Of a DNA stretch of 64,000 nt, positions 2,743 to 54,257 are shown piece by piece; the first letter of the stretch is position 1; each line of letters begins with the position of its first letter. Origin of the DNA: Blastococcus haudaquaticus. GTDB taxonomy: Bacteria > Actinomycetota > Actinomycetes > Mycobacteriales > Geodermatophilaceae. The position numbers were made by a program, and so were the translations under genes. The stretch covers positions 124,001 to 188,000 of the forward strand of contig NZ_OCNK01000005.1 of the NCBI RefSeq assembly GCF_900230285.1, written 5' to 3'. The notes under the pieces were generated by a model. That model was given only the letters and a program-made list of their open reading frames with translations. It did no database searches and was not told where the DNA came from.

Positions 2743-3621
2743 ATGATCGCTCTTACCGGAGTCACCGGGACCCTCGGCGGGCGGGTGGCCGCCCGGCTCG
2801 CCGCGGCGGGCGCCGGTCCGCTCCGGCTGGTGGTCCGCGACGCCGGGCGCGCCCCGGAACTGCCGCATGCCGAGGTCGTCGAGAACCCCGGCGGTTACGC
2901 CGACGCCGCCGGCTTTCAGGCAGCGCTGGCCGGGGCGGACACGCTGTACCTGGTGTCGGCGGCTGAGGCCGAGGACCGCCTCCAGCAGCACCTCAGCGCC
3001 GTCGAGGCCGCAGCGTCCGCGGGCGTGCAGCGGATCGTCTACACGTCGTTCGTCGGCGCCGATCGCGCCGATCCGACGTTCACCCTGGTGCGGCAGCACG
3101 GCGCCACGGAGGACGCGATCCGCGCCTCAGGCCTGCGGCACACCTTCCTGCGGCACAGCATGTACGCCGACTTCGTGCCGTTCTTCGCCGTCCGCGGGGG
3201 CGACCGCTCGGTGATCGCGGCCCCGGCCGGCGACGGCCGCACCGGCTTCGTCTCCCGCGACGACCTGGCCGACGTCGCCACCGCCGTCCTCCTGCGCACG
3301 GACGACGACCTGGACGGCCAGGCGCTCGAGGTGACCGGTCCCGAGGCACTGACGCTGGCCGAGGCTGCGGACGTGCTCGCCGAGATCACCGGACGGCCTG
3401 CGGAGTACCGACCGCAGACGACGGAAGAGGCCTGGGCGACCCGCCGTCCCTCCGGTCATCCCGACTGGGAGATCGAGGGCTGGGTGACCAGCTACCTGGC
3501 CATCGCCGCGGGCGAGCTGTCACAGGTCACCGACGTCGTCCCCCGGCTGACCGAGCACCCCGCCCGCACCGTGGCCGAGCACCTGCGCGCTCACCCGGAG
3601 GACTGGGCGCACCTGCGCTAG
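2743..3621 (+). CDS. NmrA/QorB-like NAD(P)H-binding short-chain dehydrogenase
   Basis: The protein has 292 residues and starts with an atypical extended SDR Rossmann motif, TGVTGTLGGRVAARL. It lacks the classical YxxxK catalytic pair and matches the NmrA / NAD(P)H:quinone oxidoreductase type 2 (QorB) group in length and layout (VYTSFVGADR, LRHSMYADFVPFF). Such proteins sense or use NAD(P)H and may reduce quinones; the substrate cannot be told from sequence. An upstream in-frame extension exists, but the ATG at 2743 begins exactly at the first beta strand of the Rossmann fold. It is divergent from the phosphofructokinase gene. Confidence 0.8.
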   Translation: MIALTGVTGTLGGRVAARLAAAGAGPLRLVVRDAGRAPELPHAEVVENPGGYADAAGFQAALAGADTLYLVSAAEAEDRLQQHLSAVEAAASAGVQRIVYTSFVGADRADPTFTLVRQHGATEDAIRASGLRHTFLRHSMYADFVPFFAVRGGDRSVIAAPAGDGRTGFVSRDDLADVATAVLLRTDDDLDGQALEVTGPEALTLAEAADVLAEITGRPAEYRPQTTEEAWATRRPSGHPDWEIEGWVTSYLAIAAGELSQVTDVVPRLTEHPARTVAEHLRAHPEDWAHLR

Positions 3622-3652: not shown

Positions 3653-3711
3653 GAAGGACCACGCTGCCCCCCACCGCTCGCAAGCTCGCGGCGGGACCCT
3701 GCAGCGCGGCC
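3653..3711 (+). repeat. Dispersed structured intergenic repeat, copy A
   Basis: This copy starts GAAGGACC and ends GCGGCC. An outer stem pairs CGCTGC (3662-3667) with GCAGCG (3701-3706), enclosing a CCGC..GCGG inner part. It aligns base by base with the copies at 27601 and 46864. It lies in the convergent gap after the NmrA-like gene, 31 nt past the stop. Confidence 0.7.
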
Positions 3712-4390: not shown

Positions 4391-6541
4391 ATGCGCAGGA
4401 CGTCGATCCCCGATTGGGTGTCCCCCACCGCCTGGGGCATCAGGACCAAGGTGGTCGCACTGGCCGTGACCAGCGTCGCCGTGACCGGCGTGGCGATGGG
4501 CGGGGTGAGCGCCTGGCAGAGCGGCGCCTTCGCCGACGACGCCGAACGGGACGTCAGGCAGCTGGTCGAGCAGACCATCTCCCGGACGGCCGCCGGGGTG
4601 CACGACGTCGTCGCCACGCAGGGGGCCTCCACCTCGGCGAAGGTGGACTCCGACCTCGCCGCGGCGCAGTACGTCCTCCAGCAGGCGGGCGGGTTCGCCA
4701 TCGACGACTCCGGCGAGGACCTCGTCACCTGGGATGCCAAGAACCAGCTGACCAACGAGGTCACCCCGGTCACCCTGCCCCGCGTCCTCGTCGGCGGGGA
4801 GTGGCTGGGCAAGAACAGCGACGTCGCCGTCCCCACCCCGGTGGTGGACACGATCAAGTCCATGGTCGGTGCGACCGTGACGATCTTCCAGAAGACGCCC
4901 GAGGGCAACTTCCTGCGCGTGGCGACCAACGTCCAGGCCGCCTCCGGCGCACGGGCAATCGGCACCTTCATCCCCAAGACCAACCCCGACGGCTCGCCCA
5001 ACGCGGTCAACGCCGCGGTGAGCGGCGGCCAGACCTACCGCGGCAACGCCTTCGTCGTCGACTCGTGGCTGGTGTCGGCCTACGCCCCGCTGCTGGGTCC
5101 GGCGGGCGACGTCGTCGGCGTCCTCTACGTGGGCGTCAAGCAGGAGAACCTGCCCGCCCTCCGGGAGAGCCTCAACGCGACCACCGTCGGGGAGACGGGG
5201 CACATCGAGGTCTACGGGGGCACCGGCGACCGCGCCGGCACCGTCCTGATCAGCCCCGAGGGCGTCCGGGACGGCGAGAACATGCTCGCGGCCACGGACG
5301 CCGAGGGCGCTCCGTACGTGCAGCAGATGGTCGAGACGGCCGTCGGGCTGCAGGCCGGCGAGCAGGCCACCGTCCGGTACCTCGACCCCGACGCCGGCCC
5401 CACCACCGTGCGCCTGACCTACTACGCCCCCTGGGACTGGGTGATCGCCACCGTCGCCCGGGACGCCGACTTCTCCGGCCCGGTGGAGATGATGGACGAG
5501 GGCCGCTCCTCGATGATGACGGCCCTGCTCGTCGCCGGCGTGCTCATCGCCCTGGCCGGCGGCGCGATCGCCTACGTGATCGGCCGCCGCCTGACCGGCC
5601 CGCTGCACCAGCTGCGCGACCGGATGGCCGAGATCGCCGACGGCGAGGGCGACCTCACCCAGCGGATGGACGAGTCCCGGGACGACGAGGTCGGCCAGCT
5701 GTCGGCCGCGTTCAACCGGTTCGTCGACAAGGTCGCCGGCACCGTCCGCGAGATCGGGCGCTGCGCCCAGGAGGTCGCCTCCTCGGCGGCCGGCGTCTCC
5801 TCCGTCGCCGACGGGCTGGCCGGCCGCGCCGCCCGCAACCGCGACCAGGCGCAGAGCGCCCACGCCTCGGCGGCCGAGATCAGCACGAGCGTCTCCTCGG
5901 CCGCCGCCGGCGCGCAGGAGATGGGTGCCTCGATCACCGAGATCGCCCGCAGCGCCGCCGAGGCCGCGGAGGTGGGCCGGCAGGCCGCCGAGCTCGCGGA
6001 GCGGACCGAGGCCACGATCGCCTCCCTGGGCGCCAGCTCGGCCGAGATCGGCGACGTGGTCAAGGTGATCTCCGGTGTGGCCGAGCAGACGAACCTGCTC
6101 GCGCTCAACGCCACGATCGAGGCGGCCCGCGCCGGCGACGCGGGCAAGGGCTTCGCGGTCGTCGCCAACGAGGTCAAGGAGCTGGCGCAGGAGGCGGGCA
6201 AGGCGAGCGAGGAGATCGCGCAGCGGGTGCAGGGGATCCAGTCGGAGACCTCCGCGGCCGTGCGCGCCATCGCCCAGATCGCCGAGGTGGTCCGCACGAT
6301 CAACGACCACCAGACGACGATCGCCAGCGCCGTCGAGGAGCAGACCGCCACGACCGGCGAGCTCACCCGCAGCGTCGCATCGGCGGCCGACGGGGCCGGG
6401 TTCGTCACGACGACCCTGACCGGCGTCAGCCGGGACGCCGACGACAGCGCCGCCGACGTGGAGCGGGCCCGCACCGCGGCCCGTGAGCTGGACGGGCTCT
6501 CCCGCGAGCTCAACCGCCTGCTGGGTGTCTTCACCGTCTAG
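4391..6541 (+). CDS. Methyl-accepting chemotaxis protein with periplasmic Cache-type sensor
   Basis: This 716-residue chemoreceptor has a first membrane helix at about residues 20-42, an extracellular sensor of about 330 residues (Cache 3/Cache 2 fusion-like, with LLGPAGDVVGVLYVGVKQE and LTYYAPWDWVIATVARD), a second helix near 375-397, a HAMP linker, and the cytoplasmic signalling coiled coil. The hairpin tip LLALNATIEAARAG lies near residue 569 and is followed by GKGFAVVANEVKELAQ. The ATG at 4391 has AAGGA just upstream. No che or flagellar genes lie nearby, so it must signal to components encoded elsewhere. Its ligand is unknown. Confidence 0.93.
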   Translation: MRRTSIPDWVSPTAWGIRTKVVALAVTSVAVTGVAMGGVSAWQSGAFADDAERDVRQLVEQTISRTAAGVHDVVATQGASTSAKVDSDLAAAQYVLQQAGGFAIDDSGEDLVTWDAKNQLTNEVTPVTLPRVLVGGEWLGKNSDVAVPTPVVDTIKSMVGATVTIFQKTPEGNFLRVATNVQAASGARAIGTFIPKTNPDGSPNAVNAAVSGGQTYRGNAFVVDSWLVSAYAPLLGPAGDVVGVLYVGVKQENLPALRESLNATTVGETGHIEVYGGTGDRAGTVLISPEGVRDGENMLAATDAEGAPYVQQMVETAVGLQAGEQATVRYLDPDAGPTTVRLTYYAPWDWVIATVARDADFSGPVEMMDEGRSSMMTALLVAGVLIALAGGAIAYVIGRRLTGPLHQLRDRMAEIADGEGDLTQRMDESRDDEVGQLSAAFNRFVDKVAGTVREIGRCAQEVASSAAGVSSVADGLAGRAARNRDQAQSAHASAAEISTSVSSAAAGAQEMGASITEIARSAAEAAEVGRQAAELAERTEATIASLGASSAEIGDVVKVISGVAEQTNLLALNATIEAARAGDAGKGFAVVANEVKELAQEAGKASEEIAQRVQGIQSETSAAVRAIAQIAEVVRTINDHQTTIASAVEEQTATTGELTRSVASAADGAGFVTTTLTGVSRDADDSAADVERARTAARELDGLSRELNRLLGVFTV

Positions 6542-25190: not shown

Positions 25191-26325
25191 AGTGCTGTTC
25201 GGGGGCGAGCAGCCCTGCGAAGGTGGCCGCGATCCGGGTCCAGGACCAGCGCTCCTCCACCCACACGCGGCCGGCGGCGCCCATGGCGCGGGCGCCTTCG
25301 GGATCGTCGAGCAGCCTCACGACGGTGTCCGCGACGGCGGCGGGTGAGCGCGGGTCGACGACGTGGCCGGTGACGCCGTCCTGGACCGCCTCCGGGGCAC
25401 CGCCCGACGTGCCGGCGACGACGGGCCGCCCGCAGGCGGCCGCCTCGAGGAAGACCATCCCGAGGCCCTCGACGTCGAGGCCGGCCCGGCGGGTGCGGCA
25501 CGGCATGGCGAAGACGTCCCCGGCGGCGTAGTGCGCGGGCAGCTCGGCCGGGTCGACCGGGCCGGTGAAGACGACGGAGTCCGTCAGCCCCCGGGCCGAC
25601 ACCGCGCGTCGCAGCGAGGCCTCCAGCGGGCCACCTCCGACCAGGAGCAGCCGGGCGCCGGGATGCCGGGCCAGCACGCGCGGCCAACCGGCCACCAGGA
25701 CGTCCTGCCCCTTGCGCGCGACCAGCCGGGACACGCACACCACCACCGGCGCCTCCCCCAGTCCGTACCGCGCCCGCACGCCGGATCCGTCGGCGTCCGG
25801 CGTGAAGCGGTCGACGTCCACGCCCGGGGAGAGCTGGGCGAGGCGGGTCCGCCGGTCCAGGGCCGGGGCCAGCCGGCCGCGCGTGTAGTCGCTGATGTAG
25901 GTGACGACGTCGAGTTCCGAGGCGATGCGCTGCATGACCTGCCGGCTGCCCGGGAGCGCCACCCAGCCGGTCTCGTGACCGTGCGTCGCGCCCACCAGGT
26001 GGCCGACCCCGGCGTCCCGGAGGGCCGGGGCGATGAGGCCCAGCGGGGCGGCCGCGCCGAAGAAGGCGCTGCCGCACCCGTGCGCGCGGGCGAGCTCCGC
26101 CGCCGTCCGGGCGACCGCGCGGGTGGGCAGCAGCATCGTCGTCGGGTACCGGACGACGGGATACGGCAGCGCGGCGTCGTGGTCCTCCCAGCCCGGGGAT
26201 CGGGAGGCCAGCACCACGAGGGACTCCGGTGGCCGCCGGGCGAGCAGCGCGGCGACGAACGTCTGGATGCCGCCCTGGCGCGGCGGGAAGTCGTTGGTGA
26301 CGACGAGCGTCCGCGTCCCGCTCAC
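25189..26325 (-). CDS. pimB: GT4 glycosyltransferase, PimB-type mannosyltransferase
   Basis: A 378-residue GT-B enzyme. TNDFPPRQGGIQTFV at the start, GATHGHETGW, LSPGVDVDRFTPD, VSRLVARKGQDVLV and the EX7E motif in EGLGMVFLEAAACG match PimB (Rv2188c, 385 residues), which transfers the second mannose from GDP-mannose in phosphatidylinositol mannoside synthesis. The convergent acyl-CoA synthetase neighbour is the same as in mycobacteria. The GTG at 26325 overlaps the stop of the M48 protease gene. Confidence 0.88.
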   Translation of the reverse strand: MSGTRTLVVTNDFPPRQGGIQTFVAALLARRPPESLVVLASRSPGWEDHDAALPYPVVRYPTTMLLPTRAVARTAAELARAHGCGSAFFGAAAPLGLIAPALRDAGVGHLVGATHGHETGWVALPGSRQVMQRIASELDVVTYISDYTRGRLAPALDRRTRLAQLSPGVDVDRFTPDADGSGVRARYGLGEAPVVVCVSRLVARKGQDVLVAGWPRVLARHPGARLLLVGGGPLEASLRRAVSARGLTDSVVFTGPVDPAELPAHYAAGDVFAMPCRTRRAGLDVEGLGMVFLEAAACGRPVVAGTSGGAPEAVQDGVTGHVVDPRSPAAVADTVVRLLDDPEGARAMGAAGRVWVEERWSWTRIAATFAGLLAPEQH

Positions 26326-27587
26326 GGACGGTCCAGCCGCGCCCAGTCGGCGGCCATCGCCAGACGCTGGGCAGCCGTCGGGTGGGAGCCGAAGAACCAC
26401 TGCCACGCGGCCGGCGGATCGGGGTCGCTGAGGTTGGACCCGGCGAGGTCCTGCTGCATGGCCGCGAAGGCGTCCGGATCACGCGTGAGATCGAGGGCGT
26501 GCACGTCCGCGCGGGCCTCGACGTGTCGCGAGACGGCGTTCTGGACCGGCGTGGACACCAGCGTGCCGACCGTCATCAGGAACAGCAGCAACGGGATCAC
26601 CCGGGGGTCGCCGGCCGAGTCGGCCCCGGCACGGCGGAGCAGCCGGGGCGACGACAGCAGCCAGCCGAGCGCCGCCACCCCGGCACCGGCCCCCAGGGCG
26701 CCCATGAGCGTCCCGGTCAGGACGTCGTCCGTGGCCACGTGCCCGAGCTCGTGGGCGACGATCGACTCGATCTGGTCGTCGGGCAGCCGGTCCAGCACGG
26801 TGTCGTAGAGGACCACCCGACGGGTCGAACCGAATCCCGACACGTACGCGTTGAGCGCCGTCGTGCGGCGTGAGGCATCGGACACCAGGACGTCCTGGAC
26901 CGGGGTGCCGTTCTCCTCGGCCAGCTGGAGCAGGTCGGCGCGCAACTGGCCGGCCGCCAACGGCTCGAAGCGGTTGAAGGCGGGCTCGACCAGGACCGGC
27001 CAGAGGAACGAGCCGGCGACCACCAGGGCAGCTGCCCCGGCGCCCGCCCAGGCCCACCAGGTCCGCGGCGCGCGACGGGCGAGCCAGACCAGGACCAGCA
27101 GGCTCAGTGCCGTCAGGGCGGCGTCGATGGCCACCGACACCCAGACGTCGCGCAGCCACAGCCCCCAGCTGCGCGTGGAGAGCCCGTAGCGGTGGCGGAC
27201 GACCTCGCCGTAGGCCGACAGCGGCAGGGTGACCAGGCGCCCGAGCACCGCGAGCGCGACCACGCCCAGCAGGACCTGCCACACCCAGCCGCCCCCGAGC
27301 GGCGCCGCGGCCGCACGGACGATGCGGGCGCCGGCCCGGGTCAGCCCCAGGAGCGCGGAGACGGCCAGTCCCAGCAGCAGGGACACCAGCGAGGCGGGAC
27401 GCAGCGCGGCCGCGAAGGCCTCCGCCCTGGCCACCCGATCCGCGGACAGCCCGGCCGTCGGGTCGACGGCGGTGTGCCCACCGGCCGGCTCGGGCAGGGG
27501 CACCCACGGCGTGCGGACGGCGATGACGACGGCGAGCGCGATGCCGAGGACCACCGCGGCGACCAGCGCAACGCGGCGGGCAGTCAC
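26322..27587 (-). CDS. M48-family membrane zinc metalloprotease (Ste24/CAAX protease type)
   Basis: A 421-residue integral membrane protease with about five to seven helices, including residues 8-28 and pairs around 70-200. The zinc site is VAHELGHVATDD (HExxH) plus the third ligand in VSRHVEARADVHAL (ExxxD). YGLSTRSWGLW and DASRRTTALNAYVSGFG are typical of the Ste24 group. It may clear damaged membrane proteins; the substrate is unknown. TAGGAT 7 nt upstream supports the GTG at 27587. It is coupled to pimB by a 4-nt overlap. Confidence 0.9.
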   Translation of the reverse strand: MTARRVALVAAVVLGIALAVVIAVRTPWVPLPEPAGGHTAVDPTAGLSADRVARAEAFAAALRPASLVSLLLGLAVSALLGLTRAGARIVRAAAAPLGGGWVWQVLLGVVALAVLGRLVTLPLSAYGEVVRHRYGLSTRSWGLWLRDVWVSVAIDAALTALSLLVLVWLARRAPRTWWAWAGAGAAALVVAGSFLWPVLVEPAFNRFEPLAAGQLRADLLQLAEENGTPVQDVLVSDASRRTTALNAYVSGFGSTRRVVLYDTVLDRLPDDQIESIVAHELGHVATDDVLTGTLMGALGAGAGVAALGWLLSSPRLLRRAGADSAGDPRVIPLLLFLMTVGTLVSTPVQNAVSRHVEARADVHALDLTRDPDAFAAMQQDLAGSNLSDPDPPAAWQWFFGSHPTAAQRLAMAADWARLDRP

Positions 27588-27600: not shown

Positions 27601-27662
27601 GAAGGACCCAGCTGCCCCCCACTGCTCGCAGGCTCGCAGCGGGACCCTGCAGCGGGGCCGAC
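27601..27662 (+). repeat. Dispersed structured intergenic repeat, copy B
   Basis: The sequence GAAGGACCC..GGGGCCGAC aligns with copy A over its whole length, with substitutions. Its outer stem is GCTGC (27611-27615) with GCAGC (27649-27653). Unlike the other copies it lies in a gene's upstream region (the M48 protease) rather than after a stop codon in the same orientation. Confidence 0.65.
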
Positions 27663-28804: not shown

Positions 28805-28835
28805 GAGCGGCGGCTCTCCGTTTCTTCCTCTACGA

Positions 28836-28992
28836 CCGCCTACCGAGTTAGCTGACGGGTTCGGGCGGGGAAGATCGGCCCTATCTCCTGCGCACCGGCG
28901 AACCGGCCCGGCAGGAGAACTCACCCCAGGACTGCGGTGGGTCCCCGGCTCGCCGTCCGACACCTGTGCGGCGCCGTCGGGCGATTAGGCGG
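28836..28992 (-). promoter_or_regulatory. c-di-AMP (ydaO/yuaA) riboswitch
   Basis: Read on the minus strand, the 5' half has GAGCCGGGGACCCACC and CTGGGGTGA, and the 3' half has the highly conserved CCGAACCCGTCAGCTAAC. The closing stem P1 pairs CCGCCTA with TAGGCGG (28986-28992 with 28836-28842). These are the signature elements of ydaO aptamers, which in actinobacteria commonly control cell-wall hydrolase genes and lower expression when c-di-AMP is high. It sits in the leader of the RipC-like gene. Confidence 0.93.
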
Positions 28993-29004
28993 TGCCCGTC
29001 CGAG

Positions 29005-46245: not shown

Positions 46246-46863
46246 GTGAAGCTCCGCCTGCCCGGCCGCCGCGACCGCGTCGAGACGACCGACACCCCCG
46301 CCGAGTCCGACCTCACCGAGCAGCTGGTGAGGGCCTCCGGCAAGGGCCGGCCCACTCCCAAGCGCGCCGAGGCGCAGGGACGTCGTCCCGGGCCCCCGCC
46401 GCCGCCTCCCACCACGCGGAAGGAGGCCTACAAGCGCATGCGGGAGCAGCAGGCCACCCGGCGGGCCGAGACCCGCCAGGGCGCGGCCCGTGGCGACGAC
46501 GCCTACCTGCCCGCCCGCGACCGCGGTCCGGTGCGCAAGCTGGTGCGGGACGTCGTGGACTCCCGGCGCAACATCGGCAGCTTCTTCCTCGCCATCGCCG
46601 GCGTCGCCCTGATCGGCACCGTCGTCCCGAGCCTCGTGGTGCGCAACTACGCGAGCTTCCTGCTGTTCGGCTTCTTCCTGCTGCTCATCGTCGACTCGGT
46701 GATCCTGAGCCGGAAGATCAAGAAGAAGCTCGTCGAGCGGTTCCCCGACGACCCGCAGGCGAAGAAGACCCGCGGCCTGGTCTGGTACGGCATCAGCCGG
46801 GCCACCATGATCCGCCGGTGGCGCTTCCCCAAGCCCGACGTCGCCCTGGGCGCCGACGTCTGA
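46246..46863 (+). CDS. DUF3043 membrane protein
   Basis: A 205-residue protein. A charged N-terminal half carries ASGKGRPTPKRAEAQGRR, a polyproline run and the helix TTRKEAYKRMREQQATRR. Two membrane helices follow (NIGSFFLAIAGVALIGTVVP and YASFLLFGFFLLLIVDSVIL) and a basic tail has RGLVWYGISRATMIRRWR. GRPTPKR and the two-helix layout define DUF3043, an actinobacterial family of unknown function. Its stop abuts repeat copy C directly. Confidence 0.88.
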   Translation: MKLRLPGRRDRVETTDTPAESDLTEQLVRASGKGRPTPKRAEAQGRRPGPPPPPPTTRKEAYKRMREQQATRRAETRQGAARGDDAYLPARDRGPVRKLVRDVVDSRRNIGSFFLAIAGVALIGTVVPSLVVRNYASFLLFGFFLLLIVDSVILSRKIKKKLVERFPDDPQAKKTRGLVWYGISRATMIRRWRFPKPDVALGADV

Positions 46864-46924
46864 GAAAGGACCCCGTCCTCCCCACCCCTCGCACGCTCGG
46901 GGCGGTGCCCTGGACGGGGCCGAC
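46864..46924 (+). repeat. Dispersed structured intergenic repeat, copy C
   Basis: The copy begins at the base after the DUF3043 stop. The outer stem CCCCGTCC (46871-46878) with GGACGGGG (46912-46919) is perfect, and the inside holds CCCCTCGCACGCTCGGGG. It ends GGCCGAC exactly where sequence homologous to the metallo-beta-lactamase pseudogene begins. Confidence 0.75.
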
Positions 46925-46929
46925 GCCGG

Positions 46930-47503
46930 TAGGCCTGCGCGTCGTGCACCGACGCCCGCCGGCGCGGTGAGCACCGGCAGCCGACGTCCGCCCTCGTCGA
47001 CGACGTCCTGCTGCTCGACCTCGCGCCGGGCCTGCCACCGCGCGGGATCTCGCCGGCGAGCGTGCACACGGTGCTGGTCACCCACGCCCACCCCGACCAC
47101 TGCTCGCCCTTCTCCCTGCTGTGGCGGCACTGGGCGGGGCTGCCGGGGCCGCTGACCGTGGTCGGGCCCGCGTCGGTGTTCGACGAATGCCGGCCCTGGC
47201 TGGCCCCCGACGTCCGGGTGCGTCTCACCGAGGTCTCCCCCGGTGACGCGCTGCGCTGCGGCGACCACGTCGGGCGGGACGTCGCACCTGGACCTCGTGT
47301 CGTTCCCCGGCCAGCTCGATCGCCTGCGCGCGGTCGGCGCCGTCACCCCGGACACCGATGTCGTCGCCGTCCACCTGAGCCACCACAACCCGCCGGCCGC
47401 CGAGCTGGCGCTGCGCCTGGCCGCCCCCGGCGCCCGCTCGGTGTTCGACGGAGCGACAGTCGCCGTCGGGGCCCGACGCGCGGAGCTCCGGTACGGCGCC
47501 TAA
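46930..47503 (+). pseudogene. Broken metallo-beta-lactamase-fold hydrolase gene
   Basis: Frame 1 from an in-frame TAG at 46930 encodes CASCTDARRRG, SALVDDVLLLDLAPGLP, the metal motif VTHAHPDHCSPF and VVGPASVFDECRPWLAPD, then stops making sense near 47270. The family pattern resumes in frame 2 with GGTSHLDLVSFPGQLDRL and VVAVHLSHHNPPAAELAL to the TAA at 47503. It thus lacks its N-terminus (cut at repeat copy C) and a central segment including metal ligands, and it is frameshifted. Intact relatives are often linked or fused to the cobinamide kinase CobU in actinobacteria. No functional product is expected. Confidence 0.8.
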
Positions 47504-49920: not shown

Positions 49921-51069
49921 GTGAGTGGCACGAGGCAGCGCGAGAGCGCCGTCGACCGGATCCGTGAGCGGGTCGAGGAGAAGGCCGCCCGTCGGGCCGC
50001 GGCCGCGAAGGCCGCCGCCGAGGCGAAGGGTGGGCCGGGACGCCCCCAGGGCGACCCCGACCGCCCGCCACCCGGGTCGCCCTCGCCGAGCGAACTGCCC
50101 GGTATCCACGCGGAGACGCCGACCCAGATCCCCTGGGCGGGGTGGAAGCAGATCGTCAAGCGGGCCTGGGCGGAGAACAGCGCCGACAACATGCCGATCA
50201 TCGCCGGCGGCGTGGCGTTCTTCGGCTTCCTGTCGATCTTCCCCGCCCTCATCGCACTGATCTCGATCTACGGGCTGGTCGCCTCGCCGGAGACCGTGGC
50301 CCAGCAGGTCGGGGACCTCTCGGCCCAGCTGCCCGACGACGCGGCGAGCCTCATCGAGGAGCAGCTGACCGCCATCGTCGCCAACAGCGGCAGCGCGTTG
50401 AGCATCAGCCTGGTCGTGTCCATCCTCGCCGCGCTCTGGAGCGCCTCCGGTGGGGTGGGCAACGTGGTCACGGCGATCAACATCGCCTACGACGAGGTGG
50501 AGGCCCGCGGCTTCGTCAAGCTGAAGCTGACCTCGCTCGCGCTCACCCTCGGGGCGATCGCGTTCGTCCTGGTCGCCTTCGGACTGCTGGCTGTCGTGCC
50601 CGCGGTCATCGAGGCCCTCGGTCTCGGGGTCGTCGGGACGGTCCTGGCGCAGACAGCCCGATGGGTGCTGCTGCTGGCCGCGTTCGCCGGCGGCCTCGCC
50701 GTGCTCTACCGCGTCGCACCGGACCGCGACGCACCCCGGCTCACCTGGGTGAGCCTCGGCTCCGTCGTCGTCACCGTGGTGTGGGCGATCGTGAGCGTGG
50801 GCTTCGCGCTCTACGTCAACAACTTCGGGTCCTACGACAAGACCTACGGCACGATCGCCGGCGTCATCGTGCTGATGCTGTGGCTGTACCTCACCTGCTA
50901 CCTGGTGCTGCTCGGCGCCGAGATCAACTCCGAGGCCGAGCACCAGACGGCGCACGACACCACCACCGGCGAGCCCCAACCCATGGGTGAGCGCGACGCG
51001 AAGATGGCCGACACGCTCCCGGAGAAGCCGGAACCCGAGAAGGGCGACAGCGACCCCACCAAGAAATGA
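49921..51069 (+). CDS. YihY/BrkB-family inner-membrane protein
   Basis: A 382-residue membrane protein with a basic N-terminal coil (RIRERVEEKAARRAAAAKAA), then the family core of six helices starting at AENSADNMPIIAGGVAFFGF and including LWSASGGVGNVVTAINIAYD and YGTIAGVIVLMLWLYLTCYL, and an acidic C-terminal tail. The family was once called ribonuclease BN but has no known nuclease role. It ends the four-gene envelope cluster. AGGGAG precedes the GTG. Repeat copy D starts inside its stop codon. Confidence 0.9.
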   Translation: MSGTRQRESAVDRIRERVEEKAARRAAAAKAAAEAKGGPGRPQGDPDRPPPGSPSPSELPGIHAETPTQIPWAGWKQIVKRAWAENSADNMPIIAGGVAFFGFLSIFPALIALISIYGLVASPETVAQQVGDLSAQLPDDAASLIEEQLTAIVANSGSALSISLVVSILAALWSASGGVGNVVTAINIAYDEVEARGFVKLKLTSLALTLGAIAFVLVAFGLLAVVPAVIEALGLGVVGTVLAQTARWVLLLAAFAGGLAVLYRVAPDRDAPRLTWVSLGSVVVTVVWAIVSVGFALYVNNFGSYDKTYGTIAGVIVLMLWLYLTCYLVLLGAEINSEAEHQTAHDTTTGEPQPMGERDAKMADTLPEKPEPEKGDSDPTKK

Positions 51070-51139
51070 AGGACCCCGTCCCCTCGGCCCCCTCCAGAGG
51101 CTCGGCCCGGACCTGCGAGGGCTGGGGAGGAGGGGGTCC
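51068..51139 (+). repeat. Dispersed structured intergenic repeat, copy D (diverged)
   Basis: The copy starts within the YihY stop codon with GAAGGACCCCGTCC as in copy C, but the interior differs. The ends pair GGACCCC (51071-51077) with GGGGTCC (51133-51139). It fills the convergent gap before gcvT and probably also acts as a two-way terminator. Confidence 0.6.
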
Positions 51140-51144
51140 GTCTA

Positions 51145-52263
51145 CTAACGGACGTGGGACTCCACGAACGGCGGCTTGACGACCTCCACGGCCTGCGAGC
51201 GTCCGCGGACGTCCACCGCGAGCGTGGTGCCCGCGGTCACTGCGGCGGTCGCGTCGACCAGGGCGAGGGCGATCCCGGTCCGCAGCGTCGGGGAGAACGT
51301 GCCGCTGGTGACCTCGCCGACCCGCGTGCCCTCGCCGTCGAGGACCGGCATGCCCGGCCGCGGGATCCCCCGGCCGTCGGCGCGCAGCCCCCAGAGCAGG
51401 CGGGCGGGACCGGCCTCCTTCTCGGCGAGCAGCGCCTCGCGACCCCAGAATGCCGGCTTCTGCCAGCCGACGGCCCAGCCCGAGCGAGCCTGGTTGGGCG
51501 TGATGTCCCGCGACAGCTCGTGGCCGTGCAGCGGGTACCCCATCTCGGTGCGCAGCGTGTCGCGGGCGCCCAGGCCGCACAGCCGGATCCCCTGGTCCTG
51601 GCCCGCCTCGAGCACCGCGTCCCACAGTTCGCCGGCGTGCTCGGCGGCGACCAGCAGCTCGTACCCGTGCTCGCCGGTGTACCCGGTCCGGCAGACGGTG
51701 ACCTCGGCGCCGGACCCACCGGTGCCGGTCACGAAGGACATGTAGGAGAGCTCGCCGGGCAGGCCCAGCAGCTCGAGCACCTGCAGCGCCCGCGGCCCCT
51801 GCAGCGCGAGGACGGCCACCTCGGCGTGCCGATCCGTCACGGTGACGCCCGAGGGTGCGGCGTCGGCCAACCGGGCCAGCACGTCGGCGGCGTTGGCGGC
51901 GTTCGGGACGAGGAGGACGTCGTCCGGGCCGTGCAGGTAGACGATCAGGTCGTCCACGACGCCGCCGGCCTGCGGGTCGCCGTCCGGGAGGCAGCAGAGC
52001 GTGTACTGCGCCTGCCCGGGGCCGATGCGGGAGAGGTCGTTGGTCAGGCACGAGCCGACGAACGCCGCGGCCCCCGGGCCTCGGACCGTCGCCGTGCCCA
52101 GGTGGGACACGTCGAAGAGGCCGACGGCGGTCCGGACCGCCGTGTGCTCGGCGAGGACGCCCCCGCCCGCGTACTCGATGGGCATCGACCAGCCGCTGAA
52201 ATCGGCGAGCTTGGCGCCGGCCGCGACGTGCCGGTCGTGGAGGGGGGAGGTCAGCGGGCTCAC
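51145..52263 (-). CDS. gcvT: Aminomethyltransferase (glycine cleavage T protein)
   Basis: A 372-residue tetrahydrofolate-dependent enzyme of the glycine cleavage system, which releases ammonia and passes the one-carbon unit from the lipoylated H protein. [20 protein letters not shown] at the start, [25 protein letters not shown] with NAANAADVL, and [20 protein letters not shown] are family landmarks. The other gcv genes are absent here, as in mycobacteria (Rv2211c). It is divergent from pepA by 36 nt. Confidence 0.95.
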
Positions 52264-52299: not shown

Positions 52300-53814
52300 G
52301 TGCCGCCGACGATCACCGCCACCGACCACCCGCTGGAGAAGCTGACCGGGGACGCCGTCGTCGTCGCCGTGGGCAAGGGACCGGACGGCCCGCTGCCCAC
52401 GCCCGGTGCGGAGGCCGTGGACCGCCTGCTCGGTGGCCGCCTGCTCCCGGCGCTCGCCGACCTGGGCGCCCGAGGCACGGAGGACGAGGTCACCCGGATG
52501 CCGACGTTCGGGCAGGGCCCCTTCCCCGTCGTCGCCGTCGTCGGTCTGGGCGCTCCGGATGCCACCGGCGCCTACCCGGCCGAGGCCGTCCGGCGGGCGT
52601 CCGGCGCCGCCAGTCGCGCGCTCGGCGGCCGGCGATCGGTCGTCAGCCTGCTCGCCGCCGTGGGCGGCGCCCCGGACGCCGGGCGGCTGCACGCCGTCGG
52701 CGAGGGCGCCCTGCTGGGCGCCTACGAGTTCACCGCCTACAAGTCCGACCTGCCCGCCGGCCGGCCCACGCCGCCGAGCGAGTTCACCGTCGTCGTCCCG
52801 GACGCCGGTGTCGCCGAGGACGCGCTCCGGCGGGTCCGGGCCGTGGCCGACGCGGTCGCCCTGGTCCGCGACCTGGTGAACACCCCGCCCAACGACCTCT
52901 TCCCCGCCGAGCTCGCCGCCCGCGGCGCCGCGGCGGGCGAGAAGGTCGGGCTGGCCGCGGAGATCCTCGACGAGGACGCGCTGCTGGCCGGTGGCTACGG
53001 CGGCATCCTCGCCGTCGGGCAGGGATCGACCCGCAAGCCGCGGCTGCTGCGCCTCGCCTACTCCGGGCCCGGCGCGCGCAAGAAGGTCGCGCTGGTCGGC
53101 AAGGGCATCACCTTCGACAGCGGCGGCCTCTCGATCAAGCCCGCGCTGAAGATGGAGGACATGAAGAGCGACATGGCCGGCGCCGCCGCCGTGATCGCCA
53201 CCGTCTGCCTCGTGGCCCAGCTCCGCCTCCCGGTCGACGTCGTCGCGACCGTGCCCATCGCCGAGAACCTCCCCAGCGGCACCGCCTACCGGCCCGCCGA
53301 CGTGGTGACGTTCCGCAACGGCAAGAAGGCCGAGATCACCAACACCGACGCCGAGGGCCGGGTCGTGCTCGCCGACGCCATCGCCCGGGCCGCCGAGGAC
53401 CGGCCGGACGTGCTGCTGGAGACCTCGACGCTCACCGGCGCACAGATGGTCGCGCTGGGTTCGCGCACCGCCGGTGTGATGGGCAGCGACGACCTCCGGG
53501 ACGCCGTCGTGGCCGCGTCGAAGCGCAGCGGCGAGGGCATGTGGCCCATGCCCCTGCCGCCGGAGCTGCGCAAGGGCCTCGACTCCCCCATCGCCGACTT
53601 CGTGAACGCCAACCCCGACCGGATGGGCGGGATGCTGGTGGGCGGCCACTTCCTCAAGGAGTTCGTGCCCGACGGTCTGCCCTGGGCGCACATCGACATC
53701 GCCGGCCCGAGCTACAACACCGGCTCGCCGTGGGGCTACACGCCCAAGGGCGGCACCGGCGTCCCCGTCCGCACCCTCCTCGCCACCATCGAGGGCCTCA
53801 TCGCCGAAGGCTGA
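52300..53814 (+). CDS. pepA: Leucyl aminopeptidase (M17)
   Basis: A 504-residue cytosolic M17 aminopeptidase. The N-terminal macro-like domain (residues 1-170) is followed by the two-zinc catalytic domain with VGKGITFDSGGLSIKP, MKSDMAGAAAVI and the signature NTDAEGRVVLADA. It trims N-terminal residues from peptides and turns over dipeptides, possibly including Cys-Gly from mycothiol-like thiols. It corresponds to Rv2213 (pepB). Repeat copy E follows its stop. Confidence 0.95.
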   Translation: MPPTITATDHPLEKLTGDAVVVAVGKGPDGPLPTPGAEAVDRLLGGRLLPALADLGARGTEDEVTRMPTFGQGPFPVVAVVGLGAPDATGAYPAEAVRRASGAASRALGGRRSVVSLLAAVGGAPDAGRLHAVGEGALLGAYEFTAYKSDLPAGRPTPPSEFTVVVPDAGVAEDALRRVRAVADAVALVRDLVNTPPNDLFPAELAARGAAAGEKVGLAAEILDEDALLAGGYGGILAVGQGSTRKPRLLRLAYSGPGARKKVALVGKGITFDSGGLSIKPALKMEDMKSDMAGAAAVIATVCLVAQLRLPVDVVATVPIAENLPSGTAYRPADVVTFRNGKKAEITNTDAEGRVVLADAIARAAEDRPDVLLETSTLTGAQMVALGSRTAGVMGSDDLRDAVVAASKRSGEGMWPMPLPPELRKGLDSPIADFVNANPDRMGGMLVGGHFLKEFVPDGLPWAHIDIAGPSYNTGSPWGYTPKGGTGVPVRTLLATIEGLIAEG

Positions 53815-53838: not shown

Positions 53839-53898
53839 GTCGGCCCCGTCCCGAGGCTCGCCCCGAGCGTGCGAGGGGTGAGGAGGACGGGGTCCTTC
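53839..53898 (-). repeat. Dispersed structured intergenic repeat, copy E
   Basis: Read on the minus strand it begins GAAGGACCCCGTCC, 2 nt after the stop of the 118-aa gene, and is nearly identical to copy C through CCCCTCGCACGCTCGGGGCG. The outer stem is 53844-53851 with 53885-53892 (CCCCGTCC/GGACGGGG). It separates that gene from convergent pepA. Confidence 0.75.
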
Positions 53899-53900
53899 TC

Positions 53901-54257
53901 CTAGCGAGTGGTGGGGGGCCTGTGGTCCTTGCTCCAGTCACGCATGCGCTGGGGGTAGCCGGTCACCTGGGCGTCGTAGACGGGGATCGACAGGTCGCGG
54001 GAGAGCTTCCGAGCCACGTCGGGGCCGTCGATGCGCCGGCGGGTCCATTCGCCGTCGGCGGCGACCAGCACGATCGTGGTCTCCGTGACGGCCGTCCTGG
54101 GCTCGACGTACCCCTCGACACCGCGGCGGCTGGCCACGAACTGCTCCAGGTGTCTGAGGTCGGTGCGCTGCGATCCGCGGTCCAGCGTGCCCCGGCGTCC
54201 GTCGTCGCGGGCCCGGCCCGGGCGGCTGCGGCCACGCAGCCGGTCGAACAACCCCAT
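53901..54257 (-). CDS. Conserved actinobacterial protein (118 aa), unknown function
   Basis: A 118-residue basic protein. [20 protein letters not shown] begins it, then HLEQFVASRRGVEGYVEPRT, TTIVLVAADGEWTRRRI and LSIPVYDAQVTGYPQRMRDW. The C-terminal half looks like a small alpha/beta domain. Similar proteins are annotated only as hypothetical or oxidoreductase; no catalytic residues are visible. GGGGAGAG precedes the ATG. Confidence 0.75.
   Translation of the reverse strand: MGLFDRLRGRSRPGRARDDGRRGTLDRGSQRTDLRHLEQFVASRRGVEGYVEPRTAVTETTIVLVAADGEWTRRRIDGPDVARKLSRDLSIPVYDAQVTGYPQRMRDWSKDHRPPTTR

Follow-up and report, generated by a model that had tools for sequence, protein, structure and literature searches.

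A dispersed hairpin family with covarying arms at gene ends of Geodermatophilaceae

The 64,000-nt stretch of the Blastococcus haudaquaticus genome analysed here (contig NZ_OCNK01000005.1, positions 124,001 to 188,000; hereafter the window) contains exactly five copies of a short palindromic element, all detected at E ≤ 5.4e-11 by a covariance model (R1) built on 47 diverse copies; the next two scores lie at E 0.44 and 0.45. Three copies are on the plus strand, namely copy A (3653..3711; R1 range 3656-3711, 76.3 bits, E 3.1e-14), copy B (27601..27662; 27604-27659, 75.5 bits, E 4.8e-14), and copy C (46864..46924; 46867-46922, 68.5 bits, E 1.5e-12). Copy D (51068..51142; 51140-51085, 61.5 bits, E 5.4e-11) and copy E (53839..53898; 53896-53841, 67.7 bits, E 2.4e-12) are on the minus strand. 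All five gaps to which the first-pass annotation had assigned an element of about 60 nt bear it. Copies D and E, however, have to be read on the minus strand, D carries GGACC at both ends, and C begins with GAAAGGACC. The motif GAAGGACC occurs eight times in the window compared with a mean of 1.8 in shuffles, and none of 100 shuffles reached eight.

Gene boundaries were taken from an in-house codon-usage caller rather than from the annotation. Copy A lies 31 nt past the stop of a gene that Pfam assigns to the NmrA/NAD-binding type (2743-3621, +), and the orthologous place in the same-family genome G009 has no copy. Copy B is flanked by two minus-strand genes, NlpC/P60 (27725-28696) and peptidase M48 (26322-27554), and thus runs in the opposite direction to both; it adjoins a separate conserved hairpin. 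This copy is common to G009 and, in the same orientation, G006, while the same place is empty in G010, G002, G011, and G008. A c-di-AMP riboswitch (RF00379, 66.3 bits) lies at 28821-29001 (-), upstream of the NlpC/P60 gene, which has its 3' end toward copy B.

Copy C is placed 1 nt past the TGA of a DUF3043 gene (46246-46863, +), at whose end a copy is found in three of the 11 same-family orthologues compared (G000, the own genome, G009, and G005). Directly downstream, at 46925-47060, G000 and G009, which have copy C there, lack the start of the following ORF that is seen in G003, G006, G010, and G011. The minus-strand element of copy D is embedded in a 72-nt palindrome that occupies the gap between the convergent BrkB (49921-51069, +) and GcvT-like (51145-52263, -) genes, 2 nt past the TAG on the minus strand and overlapping the plus-strand TGA at its other end; in G009, the core in the same gap has the reversed orientation. 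Analogously, copy E lies 2 nt past the TAG of a small minus-strand gene (53901-54257) that faces a plus-strand gene (52300-53814). By eye, copy E (contig position 177845) is flanked by two halves resembling an older copy.

The element follows the consensus 5'-GAAGGACC NNNNNN(N) CTCCCCAC NN CTCGC NN GCTCG NN GCGGGNCCCTG NNNNNN(N) GGCC-3', is about 56-60 bp long (56 positions in the model), and forms, as a whole, a single imperfect palindrome. In its outer stem of 10 or 11 pairs, the A at model position 3 is unpaired and forms a bulge. Between the outer stem and a short inner stem lies an internal loop (3 x 6) in which letters are conserved. The inner stem is capped by CTCGC-NN-GCTCG with a loop of ten bases and contains an A.C site at model positions 18-37 in 151 of 188 rows. 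The unpaired 5' letters are GAA, and any CGTC falls within the paired arm. With folding energies of -27 to -45 kcal/mol (plus strand as given), the hairpin is stable and GC-rich. In 33 of 199 copies, a tail like GTTCCAGCACGTCACC directly follows GGCC (≤ 3 mismatches); the tail pattern occurs 47 times in 1.09 Mb compared with three times in a reversed control.

The arms of the hairpin covary. In an alignment of 47 sequences, 93.6% of cells are paired (76.4% in shuffles) and 105 carry a double change (28.4 in shuffles), values reached by none of 500 shuffles, and sliding the pairing partners abolishes the signal. We also applied a home-made, R-scape-like tree-aware null, in which substitutions were redealt on the branches of a FastTree tree of 188 distinct rows in 60 replicates. 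Seven column pairs reached E < 0.05, five of which are structure pairs (9-49, 11-47, 8-50, 21-34, and 4-54; E ≤ 0.017), while 1-54, 3-54, and probably in part 4-54 stem from copies of 54 and 56 bases being offset by one column in the alignment. Moreover, vertical orthologues also display paired changes (e.g. G000_254 versus G002_27 and G000_64 versus G009_81). An nhmmer-based alignment in which the 3' end was cut missed the outer-stem covariation. Two correlations at E ~0.3 in the tree-aware null link model columns 16, 39, and 43, which covary as C-G-C or T-A-T although column 43 is part of the internal loop.

The proposal that the outer stem is preserved while its letters change is borne out: the changes named there are real, and the variation is far wider over the 188 distinct copies. 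The further argument that paired change means that the fold matters is likely correct, but falls short of proof: matching arms may also arise when palindromes are corrected by template switching, and arm covariation could be partly mutational.

At least 98 copies are present in the own genome (4.5 Mb, 11 contigs), where 98 of 99 scored candidates fit the model at E ≤ 1e-4; BLAST matches number at least 41, with 40 of 185 candidates scored. The first-pass annotation had staked its dispersed structured family on about ten or more genomic copies and on statistically supported outer-stem covariation, and copy number as well as the tree-aware covariation bear it out. Sixteen copies found by nhmmer on a 333,537-base contig correspond to ~216 per genome by extrapolation from this one contig, and densities across seven stretches of one genus vary between 3.1 and 11.8 copies per 100 kb.

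The element is found in 47 of 57 family genomes, representing nine of 12 genera. A 41-base degenerate pattern searched in 84,980 genomes retrieved 54 stretches, all from Blastococcus, Geodermatophilus, Modestobacter, Klenkia, or Goekera, which we take to belong to Geodermatophilaceae, the window's own family. Further, 18 of 19 same-family genomes match in a smaller panel compared with 0 of 12 genomes from other families. In a further panel, two other-family genomes carry two copies and one copy, respectively, none of them more than 2.7 kb away from the start of a contig, which we read as putative contamination or transfer. No match to the element was detected in viral contigs (pattern search) or in plasmids and phages (blastn). 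Apart from the two other-family genomes, the element was thus found in Geodermatophilaceae only. Unlike its congeners, G015, which belongs to the same genus and is nearly complete, has no copy in the set of 57 or in the smaller panel. Rfam contains no family matching the five window copies at gathering thresholds, in line with the earlier impression that this is not a named class, and the top-ranked results of a literature search held no description of the hairpin family.

Copies are concentrated behind genes. A consensus-enriched set comprised 139 copies; here, the gene on the 5' side is oriented toward the element in 116 of 136 cases, and divergent gaps hold only three copies. Where the initial GGAC is intact (120 copies), the element starts exactly 1 nt past a TGA in 43 cases, and in 42 of these 43 the TGA is part of a CTGA. 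The junction takes the form CTGAN|GAAGGACC or TAGNN|GAAGGACC, and C precedes TGA at 57 of 66 stops with the element compared with 322 of 528 without (p = 3.3e-5). This picture is weaker in a less biased sample of 75 array-merged copies from 1.44 Mb of seven genomes. Here, the flanking genes are oriented same/same in 30 cases, same/opposite in 17, opposite/opposite in 20, and opposite/same in eight, so that 47 copies lie behind a same-strand gene and 28 do not. Of these 47, 20 start at +1 after the stop and seven at +2. Density differs between gap types, with eight copies in 51.1 kb of divergent and 17 in 23.6 kb of convergent gaps.

An exactly spaced copy occurs at 17 of 684 CTGA stops, at 3 of 451 other TGA stops, and at 7 of 202 TAG stops. 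CTGA sites that are not stops but lie within 80 nt downstream carry a copy in only one of 275 cases (p = 0.03 against the CTGA stops), and over all intergenic classes (convergent, divergent, and tandem) one of 844 non-stop CTGAN sites does. For TAG, stop specificity is weaker, as 7 of 1,031 intergenic TAGNN sites carry a copy. Overall, the stop-specific enrichment is modest.

The element looks mobile in comparisons that drew on one genome per species. Between the own contig and G009 (~84% alike), nine of 16 copies were matched at the same place, two were unmatched, and five were unmappable, while G009 has nine distinct sites (with an array counted once) that lack a copy in G000. For 62 gene ends with a copy within 60 nt in seven genomes, ordered orthologue comparisons scored the copy as present 50 times and as absent 189 times, the latter including badly decayed copies (e.g. 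G009_175 and G002_167). Orientation differs among genomes at three convergent gaps. At G002_14, the insert lies between the TGA and the GGGT of the clean-looking empty G011 site (G011_18); at this one clean empty site inspected, no target duplication above about one base was found. At G009_154, an unrelated but conserved hairpin contains a copy within its 3' arm. Another copy (G008_34) is inserted ahead of an intact unrelated hairpin and is thus not needed as a terminator there.

Additionally, copies are nested. Removal of a copy restores an older one across the junction in four of 199 cases (L086, two in L087, and L097) compared with 0 of 1,626 in a clean control; an initial control, in which the pieces might contain a neighbouring copy, had scored 5 of 396. 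By eye, the copy at contig position 69875 looks nested, as does window copy E. Tandem arrays were observed at two loci. Six copies spaced ~54 bases apart form an array at ~257052-257371 of G009:C57 (L149), at a place that has no copy in G000, and L068 contains at 5410-5560 a tandem array, with period 46, of only the element's 3' half plus tail.

Where copies are shared, they are well conserved. Thirteen orthologous pairs are identical at 601 of 693 positions (86.7%), a value that leans upward since diverged copies go undetected and only recognisable ones were counted. The 3' flanks of these pairs are identical at 519 of 715 positions (72.6%) and the preceding gene ends at 86.5%, while 176 control gene-end pairs without the element reach 72.2% over 57 nt.

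The element resembles two types of bacterial repeat. MIRUs are described in PMC2734929 and PMC4213456, in the parts consulted, as actinobacterial repeats of 40-100 bp that are located after one gene's stop and before the start of the next, are found in only some species, and in some cases form tandem arrays. Our element is likewise intergenic, flush with or near stops, and found in tandem arrays (G009, L068). By description only, it differs in being a hairpin with covarying arms, in having far more copies, in occurring in another family, and in being present mostly as one unit per site. MIRU insertion reportedly takes place at DTGA sites.

REPs are short intergenic palindromes of 20-40 bp in which a terminal GTAG or CGTC is left unpaired and which reach high copy numbers and occur as dimers and clusters; CGTC REPs are also found without a known transposase, and actinobacteria are absent from the phyla shown in the parts of that source consulted (PMC3733652). 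The element differs in its greater length, its bulge and internal loop, the lack of an unpaired GTAG/CGTC tag, and the lack of a Y1 transposase in the family. PF01797, the profile of this Y1/RAYT transposase, has no match in the 57 Geodermatophilaceae genomes, including the own, while the control was positive in five of 14 named genomes; the RAYT/REP mechanism was rejected on these grounds. A true REP mobilised by RAYT would fit the short palindromic form, intergenic position, and high copy number, but given the absence of this enzyme, the length of 56-60, and the missing tag, we consider it highly improbable.

Other movers were searched for as well. IS91-type Y2_Tnp gave no match, but as the controls were silent too, this result is uninformative. 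The only reverse transcriptase (RVT_1) match in the own genome is at G000:C10:24328-24999, and its 3.7-kb locus contains no significant element (best E 0.097). A half-pattern scan for an autonomous version (left half, gene, right half) yielded no convincing case; its right-half pattern demanded the tail, so that many would be missed. In these searches, no transposase for the element was identified.

Like high-GC actinobacterial intrinsic terminators, the element is a GC-rich hairpin right after a stop. However, it lacks the U-tract in the sense of the gene: the T fraction past the hairpin is 0.139 (72 copies; genome background 0.13), with at least three T in eight in 10%. According to its title, Czyz 2014 reports that mycobacterial RNA polymerase needs a U-tract. 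Other perfect hairpins at gene ends have a downstream T fraction of 0.205. In seven stretches, 99 of the 1,290 gene ends that lack the element bear such unrelated hairpins (stem ≥ 9, loop ≤ 9), compared with 12 in shuffles; these are probably ordinary terminators. A gene-sense role of the element as intrinsic terminator is doubtful. The reverse reading, which has a mild U-tract, is more terminator-like, with a T fraction of 0.384 in the 8 nt after the hairpin and at least three T in 69% of 70 copies.

Two further hints speak for the reverse strand as the one that folds. A.C mismatches outnumber G.T (83 versus 31, p = 1.2e-6), although by no more than 46 to 30 (p = 0.085) once pair 21-34 is left out, and in the reverse reading the loop becomes CGAG/CGAG, a very stable tandem G.A motif. 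In folding energy, the reverse strand is lower in 182 of 192 copies. This energy difference is mostly a matter of composition, as the mean strand gap with the unpaired letters scrambled is -5.02 compared with -5.72 observed. A test of terminator replacement gave a mixed outcome that speaks against a simple terminator role: hairpins at element-free orthologous ends are stronger in convergent gaps (p = 0.015 and 0.007), but not where the gap is tandem (p = 0.37 and 0.33).

Taken together, we cautiously favour a family-specific MIRU/REP-like mobile hairpin that is retained for its fold as a putative 3'-end boundary. A putative mover enzyme would spread the hairpin through Geodermatophilaceae genomes, where gene ends would be its preferred sites of landing or survival, in very many cases flush against the stop codon. 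Retained copies would be kept for their fold and may act as a transcript or strand boundary, be it terminator-like, as a block at the mRNA 3' end, or as an antisense stop. While this boundary role is inferred, the data show how many copies there are, their restriction to the family, their exact spacing from stop codons, the covarying arms, gain and loss, nested copies and arrays, and the conservation of orthologues that were retained. Of the two natures first proposed, terminator or REP-like, the short mobile palindrome stands in the broad sense of REP, while a standard REP and, in the gene sense, a standard intrinsic terminator are not supported. A plain intrinsic-terminator family, maintained in place by selection and multiplied solely through descent and local duplication, would account for the gene-end bias (116 of 136 copies in the enriched set, 47 of 75 in the other), the scarcity in divergent gaps, and the unrelated hairpins that occupy some orthologous gaps. 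We regard it as unlikely in view of the missing gene-sense U-tract, the nested copies and presence/absence differences, and the loop letters conserved among copies at unrelated genes.

Conversely, the element might be a selfish hairpin without host function, the pairing of which is upheld by its mover or by template-switch correction at gene ends that merely tolerate insertion. High turnover, nesting and arrays, and a strand energy difference that is mostly composition are compatible with this explanation. Yet the conserved bulge and mismatch (A at 3; A.C at 18-37) would vanish under arm correction, retained copies match neighbouring coding ends in conservation, and the spacing is flush with stops, so that we give this explanation, too, a low probability. 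Rather remote is a mobile hairpin addressed to stop codons, which would be inserted flush at TGA/TAG, target real stops and not the motif alone, and have the reverse strand as its working strand. Read in this direction, the A.C sites would become G.U pairs, the loop the tandem CGAG/CGAG G.A motif, and UUCNUCA would follow the hairpin; each copy would then halt transcription entering the gene from behind and act as an antisense shield.

If the favoured reading of a retained mobile hairpin is correct, one such element would have reshaped many gene ends across a bacterial family, paralleling the MIRUs in mycobacteria. With hundreds of copies per lineage, it would represent a natural experiment on transcript ends in high-GC actinobacteria. 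It would further inform how repeats find stop codons and would test whether covarying arms of a repeat mean function or palindrome repair.
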